Shown piece after piece: positions 21,950 to 27,549 of a stretch of 64,000 bases of DNA (the stretch's first letter is position 1; the number at the start of each line of letters is the position of its first letter). This DNA comes from an uncultured Azospirillum sp. (GTDB lineage Bacteria > Pseudomonadota > Alphaproteobacteria > Azospirillales > Azospirillaceae): the NCBI RefSeq assembly GCF_946480385.1, contig NZ_CAMLJP010000017.1, positions 4,424-68,423 on the forward strand, written 5' to 3'. The notes beneath the pieces were generated by a model. The model was given only the letters and a program-made list of their open reading frames with translations. It did not search any database and was not told the DNA's origin. Both the position numbers and the translations under genes were made by a program.

Positions 21950-22018
21950 CAGGCACCGGAAACGACTGACAGCCCGCCCCGCACCGGCAATCGCCGAATG
22001 CGGGGCGGGCTTTTCTAT
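21950..22018 (+). repeat. 69-bp direct repeat, copy 1 (contains MarR terminator)
   Basis: This 69-bp segment recurs at 24431-24499 with 4 mismatches (65/69 identical). Copy 1 has an undamaged terminator hairpin, so it is probably the original. Together the two copies bracket the repeat/PPC gene. Confidence 0.9.
21971..22018 (+). terminator. Intrinsic terminator of the MarR gene
   Basis: AGCCCGCCCCGCA and TGCGGGGCGGGCT form a perfect 13-bp stem around a 15-nt loop (itself partly paired), followed by TTTCTATTT. Confidence 0.85.
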
Positions 22019-22280
22019 TTGGGCGGGGCGGGAGAGGGATTCCTTGCCATCGTCGCCGAAGGTCTTGGTCGGGCAAAGCTTTTGCCGCCGTAGCCTTCCA
22101 ACCGAGGCTCGCTTGAAGCAACAGGCGATGCTCGCATCATTTTTACAATCCCGCGGCAAGAAAGCGTCTTGCCAAGCGATCACATCTATCGCACACCATA
22201 AATACGTGTGAGAACTAACGCGCTGACCATTTTTTATATTTTCAACAAATCCAACGCTACCATCAAGAACGGTGCGCACC

Positions 22281-24356
22281 ATGACGTCAACCCCCAGCAA
22301 CCAAGTGGGTTTCGACGCGCTGAGCTACCTCGCCGCGAACCCCGACCTGATCCGGGCCTTCGGCATCGACACCACCGCAGCGGCGCAGCATTTCTCCACC
22401 TACGGATCCGCCGAAGGCCGCTCGACCACGTTCGACGCCTTGAGCTACGAAGCCGCCAATCCCGACCTCTCGGCAGCATTCGGCACCGACACCGCTGCCG
22501 CCACGCGGCACTACATCGAATTCGGCTTCAAGGAAGGGCGGTCGACCGCGTTCGACGCCTTGAGCTACACGGCCGCCAACCCCGACCTTCTGGCGGCCTT
22601 CGGCACCGACACCGTCGCCGCCACGCGGCACTACATCGAATTCGGGCAGCGCGAGGGCCGCAACACCTATTTCAACGCCGCCGGCTATCTGTCCGCGAAT
22701 GCCGACCTGCGGGCGGCCTTCGGCACCGACATGGCCGCCGCACAACGCCACTATATCCAGAACGGCTTCCACGAGGGACGGACGATCCCGGTGGACGACT
22801 ATGCCGAGAACACCACGACGATTGGCCGCGTCAGCAGCGGGACCGCCGCCACCGGCATGATCGAGCGGGCCTACGACGTCGATTGGTTCAGGACAACGCT
22901 GAATGCGGGCACGACCTACACGCTTTCGGTGAGCTTTCCCGGCAAGGGCACCCACGACTTCGCGCTCATCGACGGACGCGGCACCATCCTGGCGAGCGAC
23001 GGCGACCGGGACGGCGACGGCGTCCACACGGTCACCTACACGCCTGGCACGAGCGGCTCCGTCTACGCGGCGGTGAGCGGCTTCACCACCGGACGCTATT
23101 CGATCTCCATGACCGGCGGCGACGTCACGAACACGACGACGACGACCACCACAACAACGACCACGACGACGACCGTCACCACCACCACCCCGGTCACGCT
23201 GTCGGATGATTTCTCCAACAACGTCTGGACCACGGGGCGGCTTACGGTCGGCGGCACCGCCAGCGGCGTGGTGGAGAAGGATTTCGACAAGGATTGGTTC
23301 GCCGTGACGCTGGAGCGGGGATCGGTGTACCGGTTCGGCACCAGCGTCAGCACCGGCAACTCGCGTCCGACGCTCAGGCTCTATGACGCCGAGGGCTATC
23401 GGATGACCACACGGTCCTACATGCCGGGCGGGGAAAGCATGACATCCACGCCGGAAATCACGGTGGCGACGACCGGCACCTATTACCTGGAACATGATTT
23501 CGTGCTCGGACCCGGCGCCAGGGATGCGGTTCCCTACACGGTCTGGGCGCAGAGGGTGGCGATCGATTCCGCGTTTTCCGACGAGTTCGGCAATTCGCCG
23601 GGCACGGCCGGGCGGATGTCGGTCGGCGAGACGATCACGGGCGCCATCAACCAGACTTGGGACGAGGATTACATCGCCGTGTCCCTGCAGCAGGGCCACA
23701 GCTACACATTCGACGTGACCACGCCGGGTCAGGCTTTCAACTTGGCGATCAATGACGCACTCGGCAATGACGGCTGGCTGGGACCGGCGGACGACAACAC
23801 CGGCATCTACTATTACACCTCCAGCGGCGGCCATCGATTCTACAGCTATACCGCCAACAAGACCGAAACCTACCGCATCAAGCTGTCGGGCAACGATGTC
23901 GGCCCCTACTCCCTCAAGGCCACCGACAACGGCATGGTCGACGACATCGCCAACGACGCGAGCACGACCGCGCGTCTGGCGGTCGGCGGCAGCGCCACGG
24001 GGCACATCGATTACCGCCCGACCGGCGGTTCCTCGAACGGGGACAGCGACTGGTTTGCGGTGTCGCTCCAGGCCGGCCAGACCTATGAATTCGACCTCAG
24101 GAGGGACGGCGACGGCGCCGGCCTGATCCTGCGCGATCAGCAGGGCAGAGCCGTGTCCGGCGGAACCAGCGTCGATTTCTGGAACTATACCTGGGGCAAC
24201 GACAAACTGCTCTTCACCGCGACACAGTCCGGCACCCACTACCTCACGGTCAATGCGCTGATGGCCGGAACCGGGACGGATCTGGCCGGCTACACGGTCA
24301 GCGCCCGGCTGAGCGGCGGATCGGCCATGGCATCGCTGGCCGGGTTCCCCGGCTGA
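22281..24356 (+). CDS. 40-residue-repeat and PPC-domain protein, putative secreted/surface
   Basis: The 691-residue protein (ATG 22281; GTG at 22272 is the alternative) has four exact-length 40-residue repeats at residues 11-50, 51-90, 91-130 and 131-170. Their pattern is FDALSYxAANPDLxAAFGTD...AATRHYIEFG..EGR. Four PPC-like beta domains follow (about 183-282, 308-415, 425-545, 550-685), each with a D-W-F or D-Y-I motif such as DSDWFAVSLQAGQTYEFDL. A Thr-rich linker (285-303) lies after the first. PPC domains are usually found in secreted proteins. There is no N-terminal signal peptide, so export would need a non-Sec route such as type I secretion. No catalytic domain is visible. It is flanked by 69-bp direct repeats. 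Confidence 0.85.
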   Translation: MTSTPSNQVGFDALSYLAANPDLIRAFGIDTTAAAQHFSTYGSAEGRSTTFDALSYEAANPDLSAAFGTDTAAATRHYIEFGFKEGRSTAFDALSYTAANPDLLAAFGTDTVAATRHYIEFGQREGRNTYFNAAGYLSANADLRAAFGTDMAAAQRHYIQNGFHEGRTIPVDDYAENTTTIGRVSSGTAATGMIERAYDVDWFRTTLNAGTTYTLSVSFPGKGTHDFALIDGRGTILASDGDRDGDGVHTVTYTPGTSGSVYAAVSGFTTGRYSISMTGGDVTNTTTTTTTTTTTTTTVTTTTPVTLSDDFSNNVWTTGRLTVGGTASGVVEKDFDKDWFAVTLERGSVYRFGTSVSTGNSRPTLRLYDAEGYRMTTRSYMPGGESMTSTPEITVATTGTYYLEHDFVLGPGARDAVPYTVWAQRVAIDSAFSDEFGNSPGTAGRMSVGETITGAINQTWDEDYIAVSLQQGHSYTFDVTTPGQAFNLAINDALGNDGWLGPADDNTGIYYYTSSGGHRFYSYTANKTETYRIKLSGNDVGPYSLKATDNGMVDDIANDASTTARLAVGGSATGHIDYRPTGGSSNGDSDWFAVSLQAGQTYEFDLRRDGDGAGLILRDQQGRAVSGGTSVDFWNYTWGNDKLLFTATQSGTHYLTVNALMAGTGTDLAGYTVSARLSGGSAMASLAGFPG
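22311..22790 (+). repeat. Four tandem 120-bp repeats
   Basis: Units at 22311-22430, 22431-22550, 22551-22670 and 22671-22790 each encode 40 residues without any indel between copies. The middle two are most alike. Such in-frame tandem units can vary in number by recombination. Confidence 0.9.
23133..23189 (+). repeat. Poly-threonine codon tract
   Basis: Fourteen consecutive ACN codons, one GTC and four ACC codons encode a Thr-rich linker (residues 285-303) between PPC-like domains 1 and 2. Mixed ACG/ACC/ACA use suggests the tract is not a very recent slippage product. Confidence 0.85.
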
Positions 24357-24430
24357 CCGCCACGCCGCGGTGCCCGCCCGTCCAGGCGCGCCGCGGCCCG
24401 GTCGGTGCCAGGGACCCGTCCCTGGAAGAG

Positions 24431-24499
24431 CAGGCACCGGAAAAGACTGACAGCCCGCACCGCACCGGCAATCGCCGGATGGGGGGCGGGCTTTTCTAT
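24431..24499 (+). repeat. 69-bp direct repeat, copy 2 (decayed terminator)
   Basis: This segment matches 21950-22018 at 65 of 69 positions. Two of the four changes break pairs in the terminator stem. It lies 74 bp after the repeat/PPC stop codon. Confidence 0.9.
24452..24499 (+). terminator. Possible terminator of the repeat/PPC gene
   Basis: The stem AGCCCGC...GCGGGCT is kept but two internal pairs are lost relative to copy 1, followed by TTTCTAT. It may still end transcription of the PPC gene. Confidence 0.55.
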
Positions 24500-24579
24500 G
24501 GCGTGGCGAGTTGACCCGGAACGCCCTTTTGCCAAAACGAAGAGAGTGACTGACCCAACCGGGGGCCTGATTTCAGGCT

Positions 24580-25029
24580 TCAGTCGACTTCGTTGGCAGT
24601 CAGGAACATCGCCTTTGAAAGGGCGGCAAAGAACTGCTGGTAAGGCTCCGCATCCGATACCGCGACCAGATTGTATTGCGCGCTCGCGCGCACCGACATT
24701 TGGGTTTTGCCGCGCGGGCGAACGGTAACCGTCATGCGCATGGCATAGCCGGACAGCTTGGTTCCGCTGATGATCCCCAACTGCTCATCGGCCTTATCGA
24801 TGACGAAGCCCAGATCCTGAAGACTGCTGATTACCGTACGGATCGTCAGGTTGCGGTCACTTGTGTCGAATGCACGCGTCTGGATCGCACGCAGTTCGAC
24901 CTGGCTCTTGTCAACAGCCATCACCTGTTGCTTCGAGTCCGTTTGACACCCGCCGAGCGGAAGAAATGCCAGGGTGAGTGCCATGGCCAAGCCGCGGACC
25001 GACAGAGTGCGGCAATTGGGCATGCTCAT
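24580..25029 (-). CDS. Lipoprotein, B-type paralogue 2 of the duplicated module
   Basis: The 149-residue protein has a signal peptide and lipobox (PLGGC, Cys about 28). The mature part begins with ELRAIQTRAFDTSDRN, then SLQDLGFVIDKADEQLG, and ends FFAALSKAMFLTANEVD. All these are shared with the 165-residue protein encoded at 26086-26583, and more weakly with the two 184-residue lipoproteins. No known family name comes to mind. Its ATG overlaps the stop of the preceding A-type gene (ATGA at 25026-25029), so the pair is translationally coupled. Localisation to the inner face of the outer membrane is inferred from the lipobox with Gln at +2. Confidence 0.85.
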   Translation of the reverse strand: MSMPNCRTLSVRGLAMALTLAFLPLGGCQTDSKQQVMAVDKSQVELRAIQTRAFDTSDRNLTIRTVISSLQDLGFVIDKADEQLGIISGTKLSGYAMRMTVTVRPRGKTQMSVRASAQYNLVAVSDAEPYQQFFAALSKAMFLTANEVD

Positions 25030-25580
25030 ATCTGGTGCGCCTCAAGGAAAACGGATTGTGAAAGCTTTTCGAAGAATTGCTGATGGATTTCGGGCTTGTC
25101 GATCGTCTCGACTCGCGAGACTTGGTTCTTCGTGTTCCAGATTACGCGCTGGAATGTCGCGCGGACGACGATGCCGCTCCGATCGGCCGTAGGGCGCGTC
25201 ACAATGGAGATCCTGATTTTCTGATTGGCGTCCCACACCGGATCAGCACGTCCTCCCATGGCCGCGACCAGGAGAGCAAAAAAGACTTGTCCGGCAACCT
25301 GCCCCGATTCGACCGCATCGCGATCCTTGGAAGCGACGATCAGCCCGGCCTTGAGGTTGGTCTCCTCGGTGGTAAACCCCAGGTCCTGCAACACGCCGGC
25401 AGATGCCGCGAGGATCGCTTGTTCATCGGCCGTGTCGAAACGCCGGGTTTGCATCTGACGCTGCCCAAGGCTCTCAGCCGCCAGGGTGAGCGCAGCGGCC
25501 TGCTGCTGCGCTCCCGGAGTCTGCTGGCAGCCTGCCAACGCCGTTAGGATCAGGGCGGATACGACAACCCGGCATTTCAT
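25026..25580 (-). CDS. Lipoprotein, A-type paralogue 2 of the duplicated module
   Basis: The 184-residue protein has a lipobox (LTALAGC, Cys 18). Shared elements with the A-type protein at 26580-27134 are RQMQTRRFDTADEQ, VLQDLGFTTEE, GLIVASKDRDA, a short hydrophobic stretch (about 98-112), and the end QFFEKLSQSVFLEAHQI. The two A proteins are the same length. It overlaps the downstream B-type gene by 4 bp. No function is known to me; the membrane-proximal hydrophobic stretch could insert in the outer membrane or bind a partner. Confidence 0.85.
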   Translation of the reverse strand: MKCRVVVSALILTALAGCQQTPGAQQQAAALTLAAESLGQRQMQTRRFDTADEQAILAASAGVLQDLGFTTEETNLKAGLIVASKDRDAVESGQVAGQVFFALLVAAMGGRADPVWDANQKIRISIVTRPTADRSGIVVRATFQRVIWNTKNQVSRVETIDKPEIHQQFFEKLSQSVFLEAHQI

Positions 25581-25593
25581 GCTGCAGCTCCCG

Positions 25594-26061
25594 TCAGAAG
25601 CTGCTGGAGCGGTACGAGAAATCGCGGACCCGGCTGTTCTCGTCGAACTTGACGATCACCGTCAACGTCCGCTGTGAGGTGCTGCGCGCGCCCGCGGCGC
25701 CGCTGACGCCAGCGCCGCCCAAGGCGCCGCCGATGCCGGCACCGATCGGGCCACCGCCCAGAATCAATGCGTTCACTCCGCCGCTGCTGGAAGAGTACGC
25801 GGTTTCCGTCGAGATCTTGTCATAGACCCAGTTCTCGCGCCGACGGTCATCCGTCGTCACCATGTTGGGCGAACCAAGCACCTCCACGACTTCGGCACTC
25901 GTCATGCCGATGCGGATCTCGCGCTGCACCTTGCCGACGGTCAGGCGATCGCCATCCTGCGCCTGACGGACGGCCGCAGCATGCTCTCCCGCCGTCTGGC
26001 AACCGGCGAGCAGCACCGAGGCAAGCCCCATCGCGGCCAATGAGAAATTCTTGAAGAGCAT
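25594..26061 (-). CDS. SmpA/OmlA (BamE-like) domain lipoprotein
   Basis: The 155-residue protein has a lipobox (SVLLAGC, Cys 21) and a BamE-like segment: VQREIRIGMTSAEVVEVLGSPN and then RRRENWVYDK, matching the G-M-(S/T)-x-x-(E/D)-V-x-x-x-L-G-x-P motif of SmpA/OmlA. A glycine-rich stretch (about 100-125) is inserted before the final strand (RTLTVIVKFDENSRVRDFSY). BamE helps the BAM complex insert outer-membrane proteins. It sits between the two copies of the A-B lipoprotein pair, 13 bp from one and 24 bp from the other, so all five are probably one operon. Confidence 0.85.
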   Translation of the reverse strand: MLFKNFSLAAMGLASVLLAGCQTAGEHAAAVRQAQDGDRLTVGKVQREIRIGMTSAEVVEVLGSPNMVTTDDRRRENWVYDKISTETAYSSSSGGVNALILGGGPIGAGIGGALGGAGVSGAAGARSTSQRTLTVIVKFDENSRVRDFSYRSSSF

Positions 26062-26085
26062 GGAAAGACCTCGATCTGAATAGGA

Positions 26086-26583
26086 TTACGGCTTGGCAGT
26101 CGTTTTCGATGCAGCGTCCGGCACCCGCGGAACATCCTCTTCACTTCCCAGTTCCATGGCAGTCAGGAACATTGCCTTGGACAGGGGTTCAAAGAACAAG
26201 TCCTTGTAAAAGGCCGGATCGTCCACCTGACTTTCCATTCCAGGATTCATGACCAAGGCATTGGAGCGCACGATCATGCGCGAAGGACCACGCGGATAAA
26301 CCGTGGCGGTCATGCGGAGCTTGGCCAGCTTGGTTGCCGACACCGTTCCGGCAGCCGGCTCGACCTTGTCGATCCCATAGCCAAGATCCTGGAAGGTGGC
26401 GATCACCGTTCGCAGGGTCTTGTTCTGATCGGAGGTTTCGAAGGCGCGCGCCTGCATGGCCCTCAACTCGACAGGGCTTTTCTTGCTGAGCACGACCTGC
26501 GACTGATTGTTGGTCTGGCAAGCTGCGACGGTAAGCGCCATAGCGCCGAAGATCGCAAAGCGGATGCTCTTGCTCAGTGTCAT
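26086..26583 (-). CDS. Lipoprotein, B-type paralogue 1 of the duplicated module
   Basis: The 165-residue protein has a lipobox (TVAAC, Cys 22). It shares PVELRAMQARAFETSDQNKT, TFQDLGYGIDK and FFEPLSKAMFLTAMEL with the B-type protein at 24580-25029, and has an extra 15-residue C-terminal tail. It overlaps the upstream A-type gene by 4 bp (ATGA at 26580-26583), the same arrangement as in the second pair. Function unknown. Confidence 0.85.
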   Translation of the reverse strand: MTLSKSIRFAIFGAMALTVAACQTNNQSQVVLSKKSPVELRAMQARAFETSDQNKTLRTVIATFQDLGYGIDKVEPAAGTVSATKLAKLRMTATVYPRGPSRMIVRSNALVMNPGMESQVDDPAFYKDLFFEPLSKAMFLTAMELGSEEDVPRVPDAASKTTAKP

Positions 26584-27134
26584 ATCTTGTGAGCCTCAAG
26601 GAACGCGCTGGCGGAGAGCTTTTCAAAGAACTCCTGGTAGAGTTGCGGTTCCATCAGCAACTCCGCCTTCCAGGCGTGCCCATGATTATTGACGAGGATT
26701 CGGTCGAAAGTGGTGCGCACTTCGGTCTGGCGGCCGCCCGACACCGGGTTGGCAATAAACGTGACCCGAATGGTCTGTTCCTGGTCCCAGGTGGGATTGT
26801 TTGCCACGCCGAGGAGAGCCATTGCGATCGTCAGGCCGATCTGTGCCGCGACCTGCCCACCCTCTTCCGCATTCCTTTGCTTGGATGCGACCACCACGCC
26901 GACATCGCTCGACGCCTCGGAAATGGTGAAGCCAAGATCCTGAAGGGTCTGGGTTCCCGCCTCGAGCAGAAGCTTCTCGTTCTCGCTGTCGAAACGGCGC
27001 GTCTGGAGCGCGCGCATTTCAAGCGCCTTCTCCGGCGGCTTGCCGACGGTTTTCGCCACGTCATTCATTGTCTGGCATGCTGACAGCACACCAGCAGCAA
27101 GGATGGCCGCAGCCAATCCAATGTGTACACGCAC
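26580..27134 (-). CDS. Lipoprotein, A-type paralogue 1 of the duplicated module
   Basis: I place the start at GTG 27134: GAGG lies 5 bp upstream, the protein then begins MRVHIGLAAAILAAGVLSAC with a lipobox at Cys 20, and the length becomes 184, equal to the paralogue at 25026-25580. An ATG at 27170 and a longer frame to 27197 have no ribosome site. Shared elements are EMRALQTRRFDSENEK, TLQDLGFTISE, VVVASKQRNA and the end EFFEKLSASAFLEAHKI. It is the first gene of the five-gene lipoprotein cluster. Confidence 0.83.
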   Translation of the reverse strand: MRVHIGLAAAILAAGVLSACQTMNDVAKTVGKPPEKALEMRALQTRRFDSENEKLLLEAGTQTLQDLGFTISEASSDVGVVVASKQRNAEEGGQVAAQIGLTIAMALLGVANNPTWDQEQTIRVTFIANPVSGGRQTEVRTTFDRILVNNHGHAWKAELLMEPQLYQEFFEKLSASAFLEAHKI

Positions 27135-27400
27135 GCGAACCTCGACAGCACATCTAAACCATAGATCCATAAAACCGAAAGTAGGGTTTTGTTGCAAGAG
27201 GAAACATATACGGATTAATTCGTTCGATTCCGAGCCGTGTTGGTTGTTCCGGCGACAGTTGGATTATTGGGCAAGACCGCGACTGCGTCGTTGACGCATC
27301 CACCCACGACATCCGGGCGCAATTCTACCGCCAGTCACGGATTTGGCGTGCCGCTCCCGGCGTCTCCGGCCGAAGAAACGGGAATAAGGCAAACTGTGGA

Positions 27401-27451
27401 GAAAAGAAAAAGGCCAGAGCGGATTTTCTGAGAAAATCAACGCTCTGGCCT
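27401..27451 (-). terminator. Intrinsic terminator of tRNA-Ser
   Basis: On the minus strand AGGCCAGAGCG and CGCTCTGGCCT pair over 11 bp, with an inner near-palindrome (GATTTTC/GAAAATC), followed by TTTTTCTTTTC. It begins 8 bp after the tRNA 3' end. Confidence 0.9.
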
Positions 27452-27458
27452 GAATTCG

Positions 27459-27549
27459 TGGCGGAGGGAGAGGGATTCGAACCCTCGATACGCTTTTGAC
27501 GTATACACACTTTCCAGGCGTGCGCCTTCAACCGCTCGGCCACCCCTCC
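27459..27549 (-). tRNA. tRNA-Ser (anticodon GGA)
   Basis: The minus strand reads GGAGGGGTGGCCGAGCGGTT at the 5' end, forms the acceptor stem GGAGGG/CCCTCC, and carries the anticodon loop CTGGAAA (GGA) between CACGC and GTGTG. A long variable arm (GTATACGTCAAAAGCGTATC) marks a class II tRNA. The T arm GAGGGTTCGAATCCCTC and an encoded CCA end complete it. GGA reads UCC and UCU serine codons. Confidence 0.96.

Follow-up and report, generated by a model that had tools for sequence, protein, structure and literature searches.

We analysed a window of 64,000 nucleotides from an uncultured Azospirillum sp. (contig NZ_CAMLJP010000017.1, positions 4,424 to 68,423), in which five small consecutive genes, all on the minus strand at 24580-27134 by our reading of the open reading frames (ORFs), encode putative lipoproteins in the order A1-B1-E-A2-B2. 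The last three belong to a transferable cassette, E-A-B, that we found on phages, on plasmids and in genomic islands. The family is real and has no name in the libraries searched. E is a BamE-like protein, and A and B are predicted to adopt a fold also found in BamC, so that an earlier hint of a link to the barrel-assembly (BAM) machine gains structural support from the models.

The initial annotation of this DNA had described five lipoprotein genes in which overlapping pairs flank a BamE-like gene, and this holds at the coordinates in Table 1: the two A/B pairs are joined by ATGA overlaps and each product has a lipobox-like site in which Cys is followed by Gln (SACQ, AACQ, AGCQ, AGCQ and GGCQ for A1, B1, E, A2 and B2, respectively). 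In Escherichia coli, lipoproteins with Gln in this position are not retained in the inner membrane. A1 has an alternative start, an open TTG 63 nt upstream of its GTG, and B1 ends in a tail of about 20 aa that is missing from B2.

Table 1. Features of the window, with positions counted from its first letter.
Feature	Position	Strand	Remarks
A1, A-type lipoprotein, diverged extra copy	26580-27134	-	184 aa, GTG start
B1, B-type lipoprotein	26086-26583	-	165 aa
E, BamE-domain lipoprotein, heads the conserved E-A-B unit	25594-26061	-	155 aa
Gly-rich hydrophobic insert of E, about residues 94-124	25690-25782	-	length varies among relatives (alignment)
A2, A-type lipoprotein, predicted helix-grip fold (BamC-like)	25026-25580	-	184 aa
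Extra hydrophobic helix of A2, residues 92-107, predicted between helix-grip strands; not in B2	25260-25307	-	model
B2, B-type lipoprotein, predicted helix-grip fold (BamC-like)	24580-25029	-	149 aa
Insert missing at the empty sites of G222 and G226; five-gene cassette and 694-aa gene	22024-27455		
tRNA-Ser(GGA), 3' end toward the insert	27459-27549	-	tRNA/hydrolase block match 45/45
16 nt inside the tRNA-Ser 3' end, matching the repeat below	27463-27478		
Candidate attachment-site-like repeat of the tRNA-Ser 3' end, left insert edge	22027-22042		15/16 nt
694-aa PPC-domain protein, same insert, convergent with the cassette	22272-24356	+	

A transferable three-gene unit

In all 42 assessable loci, E has an A/B gene after it in the same orientation, overlapping or at most 38 nt away; this figure uses the earliest possible starts, includes many loci found with A/B probes and counts both of the near-identical loci L084 and L085. 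Among loci fetched through E matches alone, this was the case in 16 out of 16 (L106-L118, L167, L168, L172); one more E matched alone lies at a contig end (L173). Two of the 20 class-wide E matches, a fragment in G152 and a second weak match in G112, are outside the neighbour count. Also outside the 42, a distant alphaproteobacterium encodes a second weak BamE-like lipoprotein (26 bits) directly upstream of E (L115, 1142-1555, minus strand).

The E-A-B order was found in five Azospirillum genomes, in other Alphaproteobacteria, in other Pseudomonadota, on an Acinetobacter plasmid and in two metagenome-assembled genomes (MAGs) of Phycisphaerales (Planctomycetota). More distant genomes encode E followed by a single A/B-like gene. 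We found A/B genes without E at L043 and L046, while L048, L076 and L077 could not be judged on this point because of contig ends. The two-gene module duplicated around E, as the initial annotation had put it, is thus replaced by E-A-B, or by E with one A/B-like gene in the distant genomes. The recurrent unit is E-A-B, with A1-B1 an added, diverged pair. The five-gene layout is not unique to this genome, since the profile search recovered A-B-E-A-B in three others of the genus (G001, G212 and G223). Two genomes of another family, G159 and G609, carry an A/B-type pair before E, one member after it and two on the opposite strand. In two genomes of one alphaproteobacterial genus (L044, 6569-9458, and L072), five A/B members surround E on the two strands, and two of the five lack a clear lipobox.

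The distribution of the cassette is patchy. The B profile matched nine of 190 genomes of the class, eight of 82 of the order and 11 of 398 of the phylum, and the E profile 19 of 385 genomes of the class. Weak B-profile matches at L049 (G096) and L074 (G509) were dropped, as neither place has an A/B ORF. Within the genus, eight of 45 genomes carry the cassette, and the B profile is without match in the other 37.

The families are found on nine IMG/VR contigs (L077, L078, L079, which is also L083/L171, L084/L169, L085/L170, L167, L168, L172 and L173). Hidden Markov model (HMM) searches identified head, packaging or tail genes on five of these (L078, L079, L167, L172, L173) and an integrase on L168. 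A large gene upstream of E in L084, to which L085 is near-identical, had no HMM match. No phage hallmark was found among the three genes tested on L077, which has type III restriction and AAA_13 genes as neighbours instead. Firm names of neighbouring genes come only from HMM searches; the others follow a longest-ORF rule that is error-prone in GC-rich DNA. The phage-borne E genes occupy four places of the E tree, some of whose forks are modestly supported, and the E of the window is nearest to a phage-borne group (support 86/84).

Plasmids and conjugation genes provide further settings. An 8-kb Acinetobacter plasmid carries E-A-B and a gene for a RelE-type toxin, and two A. brasilense copies are carried by replicons recorded as plasmids, of 643 and 704 kb. 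Relaxase and NikA-like genes lie near the cassette of L042, where E is directly preceded by a WYL regulator; at L073, genes for TraU and an S26 signal peptidase are nearby. Defence genes are neighbours at a few loci: in one planctomycetal MAG (L003, 9313-14749), E-A-B is preceded by a WYL regulator and followed closely by cas9, cas1 and a gene of cas2 size, and L168 encodes an OLD/AriA/GajA-like ATPase. On the phage contig L172, a gene for an outer-membrane beta-barrel (PF13505; 49-786, plus strand) lies directly upstream of E-A-B, and its product is a possible client of the cassette.

The insert at the tRNA-Ser gene

In the window, the cassette is part of a 5.4-kb insert at the 3' end of a tRNA-Ser(GGA) gene. 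DNA resembling the block made up of this tRNA and an alpha/beta-hydrolase gene was matched in all 45 genomes of the genus, in some of them as separate pieces. The site is empty in G222 and G226, where the DNA left of 22023 joins the tRNA at 27455 with about 100 nt in between. Hence, the 5.4 kb encoding the cassette and the 694-aa protein was gained or lost. GC content ranges from 55 to 66% over the cassette (600-base windows), whereas the 2 kb to the right of the tRNA have 69-73%.

The tRNA 3' end is variable across the genus: the cassette is found there in the window, G001 and G223, other DNA in G211, and G204 has an island encoding a phage-type integrase (PF00589) that is bordered by repeats of this tRNA end. 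At L068 (A. melinis), only the cassette is found between a left flank shared with the window and what remains of the tRNA 3' end. Ten tRNA loci were compared, of which two were empty (L210, L212), two had the insert (L213, L214), one had other DNA (L211) and one the integrase island (L209); at the remaining four (L205-L208), the sequence ends or changes so close to the tRNA that they could not be classified. The short repeat at the left edge of the insert is only a candidate attachment site that chance could produce; the firmer evidence comes from the empty sites and from the tRNA-end repeats of G204 and A. melinis. Beside the tRNA-Ser block of A. melinis, genes of the DpdB-like, radical-SAM and PTPS types may form an island for deazapurine modification of DNA (L208, G212:C120). 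These DpdB-like genes and the cassette of that genome are on different contigs.

The 694-aa gene, which contains four repeats at a spacing of 120 nt (22311-22780), is outside the unit because it is missing beside the cassette in L068. It is flanked by two copies, 94% identical, of a 69-nt hairpin-like sequence (21950-22018 and 24431-24499). Given these flanks and its absence from L068, the gene may be separately mobile.

Relationship of E, A and B to the BAM lipoproteins

E matches the BamE domain (PF04355) above the Pfam cut-off (25.5 versus 23.2 bits), as its description as a BamE-like protein had implied, and some other E proteins score under this cut-off. It also matches phrog_3135, of unknown function, in PHROGs (E-value 9.2e-9). 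To discriminate E from the ordinary BamE, we searched for further PF04355 proteins: 17 of the 19 E-bearing genomes have a second match away from the E locus, and the other two none at an E-value of 0.001 or less. In a tree, 34 E proteins were separated from 10 canonical BamE, taken from 10 of 15 loci, with support 100/100, although several BamE rows are long branches. The idea that E is the genome's ordinary BamE, i.e., the BAM subunit itself, was rejected in view of the separate BamE and the separate clade. Sequence comparisons thus place E as a BamE-domain protein of its own clade, apparently additional to the ordinary BamE.

Neither A nor B has a named family in Pfam or NCBIfam, as first supposed, or in PHROGs and PADLOC. 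The A3 alignment of 89 members (87 of B type) gave only weak and scattered Pfam matches. Searches with single proteins retrieved 1284 relatives for A2 and 4347 for B2, sets that may overlap because A and B are homologous. In single comparisons, A1 and A2 are 42% identical over 149 aa (E-value 2e-44), B1 and B2 51% over 142 aa (6e-39), and A1 and B2 29% (2e-15). The proposed paralogy of A and B was borne out by comparing their profiles (probability 99.6%, E-value 9e-24), and we regard the two as ancient paralogues. In the A/B tree, A (30 rows) and B (27 rows) form two groups with one label change each (support 94/91); the A-B split is therefore older than the spread of the three-gene form. A1 is on a long branch of its own and B1 is apart from B2. 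A2 and B2 fall among Magnetospirillum/Rhodospirillum-type proteins, a grouping that A1 and B1 do not share. We therefore rejected a recent tandem copy of A2-B2 as the source of A1-B1: the pairs are not sisters in the tree.

AlphaFold2 models of A2 and B2 each contain one helix-grip domain, the fold of BamC. When compared with known structures by Foldseek, BamC or chain C of the BAM complex filled ranks 1-13 for B2 and 1-11 for A2. The predicted proteins differ from BamC in having one such domain each, and not two in tandem after a long disordered N-terminus. The BamC family (PF06804) was not matched by A1, B1, A2 or B2 at E-values up to 10, and is absent among the best 25 of 33 Pfam families for the A3 members. 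No significant PDB match came from sequence searches with A1 by itself or with the profiles A3 and A4. B2 had one match at an E-value below 0.001 in a library of viral structures, a mimivirus protein. Collinear alignments with the N-terminal domain of BamC were obtained for the A profile and for the pooled A/B profile; the BamC profile was built from 15 of 26 BamC loci (16 were extracted and one odd ORF was dropped). The pooled profile matched BamC weakly (E-value 0.0018, probability 14.9%), the E-values of 11 shuffled and three reversed control profiles being 0.15-0.78. Descent of A and B from BamC is only suggested by such profiles.

Possible roles of the cassette and comparison with known systems

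The link to barrel assembly made by the initial annotation stands in part. E is BamE-like and the models of A2 and B2 rank BamC first. A core role in barrel assembly is unlikely because the B profile is silent in 37 of 45 congeners, the cassette is inserted at a tRNA and most E-bearing genomes (17 of 19) have a BamE besides E. Since the cassette is accessory, we dropped the core role as the main explanation. The phage-borne copies suggest that phages took up the cassette on separate occasions; with its BamE- and BamC-like folds, it is most simply explained as an outer-membrane complex of use to the element's host.

Our preferred, tentative explanation is that mobile E-A-B alters the entry of phages or plasmids by means of a BAM-like lipoprotein arm. 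The three lipoproteins would go to the outer membrane and assemble into one complex. In E. coli, BamE and BamC sit together with BamD. The E-A-B complex may dock on, or imitate, this lipoprotein face of the BAM machine, and the hydrophobic inserts of E and A could dip into the membrane. The assembly or the accessibility of surface proteins would be altered, and a cell with the element would admit a second phage or plasmid less readily (superinfection or surface exclusion). Superinfection-exclusion lipoproteins (morons) are encoded by phages or plasmids, and so is the cassette. We favour exclusion through such an arm because of the separate uptakes by phages, the BamE- and BamC-like folds, the precedent of TraT (see below), exclusion by lipoproteins being an established strategy, and the use of BAM as a docking point by phages: BamA is reported as the adsorption target of phage phi24B (PMC3430580). 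The constant operon, the mobile settings and the defence genes beside some copies also speak for it. A stronger version, in which a portable arm docks on the host BAM and reprograms the surface against competitors, as a new class of envelope-level superinfection exclusion, is a good deal less likely.

Several observations weigh against exclusion, or against the likeness to BamC on which it draws. IMG/VR contigs are viral by selection and the share of phages among our loci is not a rate; B2 and E of the window had no match in 50,697 deposited phage records. By eye, the neighbours are housekeeping-like at L045, L106-L109, L112, L114, L116 and L117, and therefore a defence or mobile context is not general. 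A general rule of defence islands was accordingly not supported: defence genes occur at L003, L077 and L168 and none was seen by eye at those chromosomal loci. The defence neighbours are observations at single loci. No convincing model was found in PADLOC-DB 2.0.0 for ten cassette proteins, which had three partial, weak matches (best E-values 0.0017, 0.013 and 0.015). A scan of the cassette for sigma-70-type promoters found none. As for the fold, the helix grip is common, and Flpp3, KA1 and plant Bet v 1-type proteins match BamC's VIA-align scores. The profile comparisons with BamC are weak for A (E-value 8.7e-4, probability 23.5%) and for B alone (0.038, 1.4%).

Ranking close behind exclusion, and in itself rather unlikely, is the explanation that in lineages lacking BamC the cassette is an accessory of BAM, E and A/B adding a BamE/BamC-type arm that would help to fold certain outer-membrane proteins, including proteins brought by mobile elements; phages would then carry it as a hitch-hiker and nothing would be excluded. 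The association of BamE-like and predicted BamC-like folds within one operon is in line with this, and so are the chromosomal copies of E with a single A/B-like gene in Alphaproteobacteria, many of which have small genomes, and the beta-barrel gene just before E-A-B in L172. Yet, the lack of matches in most congeners shows that the cassette is dispensable there, the E-bearing genomes usually have a separate BamE, and we saw no recurrent client gene among the neighbours by eye. Less likely again is a set of envelope-stress or barrier proteins, similar to OsmE and BsmA, that would make the outer membrane tighter during osmotic, acid or oxidative stress and spread as a niche gene. A mobile and patchy distribution suits a niche trait, and E and A1 have weak matches to OsmE (E-value 0.038) and BsmA (0.16), respectively; both are far below the cut-off, and the repeated position beside phage structural genes would be unexpected for stress genes. 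Finally, the cassette could be a structural or lysis function of phages (spanin-like outer-membrane lipoproteins) captured by chromosomes. It does adjoin head, packaging or tail genes on five contigs, but in L078 it is on the strand opposite to the portal and capsid genes, many copies have no recognised phage genes nearby (by eye), no recurring inner-membrane partner was seen with the three conserved lipoproteins, and the cassette is also found on a plasmid and near conjugation genes. We consider this very improbable.

A family with the predicted fold of BamC, linked to a BamE paralogue in Alphaproteobacteria and carried by phages and plasmids, offers a direct way to trace the origin of the BAM lipoproteins and to ask whether the assembly of outer-membrane proteins is manipulated by mobile elements. 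If the portable arm were real, it might also supply lipoproteins of the BamC fold to lineages regarded as lacking BamC. We found no description of a BamC-like, phage-encoded or prophage cassette of BAM-type lipoproteins in the titles and abstract openings of the open-access papers retrieved.

Among the known systems, TraT is similar in concept. It is described as a lipoprotein that mobile elements place in the outer membrane, that also has relatives on chromosomes and was co-opted by plasmids more than once independently, and that forms a decamer anchored by an alpha-helical barrel (PMC11733297). The cassette resembles it as a candidate surface-exclusion lipoprotein system of mobile elements with chromosomal relatives, and differs in that A and B have predicted helix-grip domains in place of this barrel; none of the five window proteins matched the Pfam family of TraT at E-values up to 10. 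Flpp3, a Francisella lipoprotein of solved structure (PDB 6pny), is not among the PDB matches of the A and B profiles. BamF of Caulobacter is an alphaproteobacterial BAM lipoprotein with an N-terminal motif related to BamC, reported to have a predicted architecture unlike that of BamC and to be present in all Alphaproteobacteria (PMC3359395). This published description sets it apart from A and B, which are patchy and predicted to be helix-grip proteins.

The remaining comparisons are with the BAM lipoproteins themselves. A and B resemble BamC as lipoprotein-like proteins with a predicted BamC-type helix-grip domain, and differ from it by the single domain, the lack of a Pfam match and, in A, the added hydrophobic helix. 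BamC was reported to be absent from Alphaproteobacteria (PMC3359395), whereas A and B are present in this class and in the two planctomycetal MAGs. E has the domain of BamE (PF04355) and a lipobox-like site, and is distinguished from BamE as an additional copy in a fully supported separate group, with a Gly-rich insert and with A/B genes after it.

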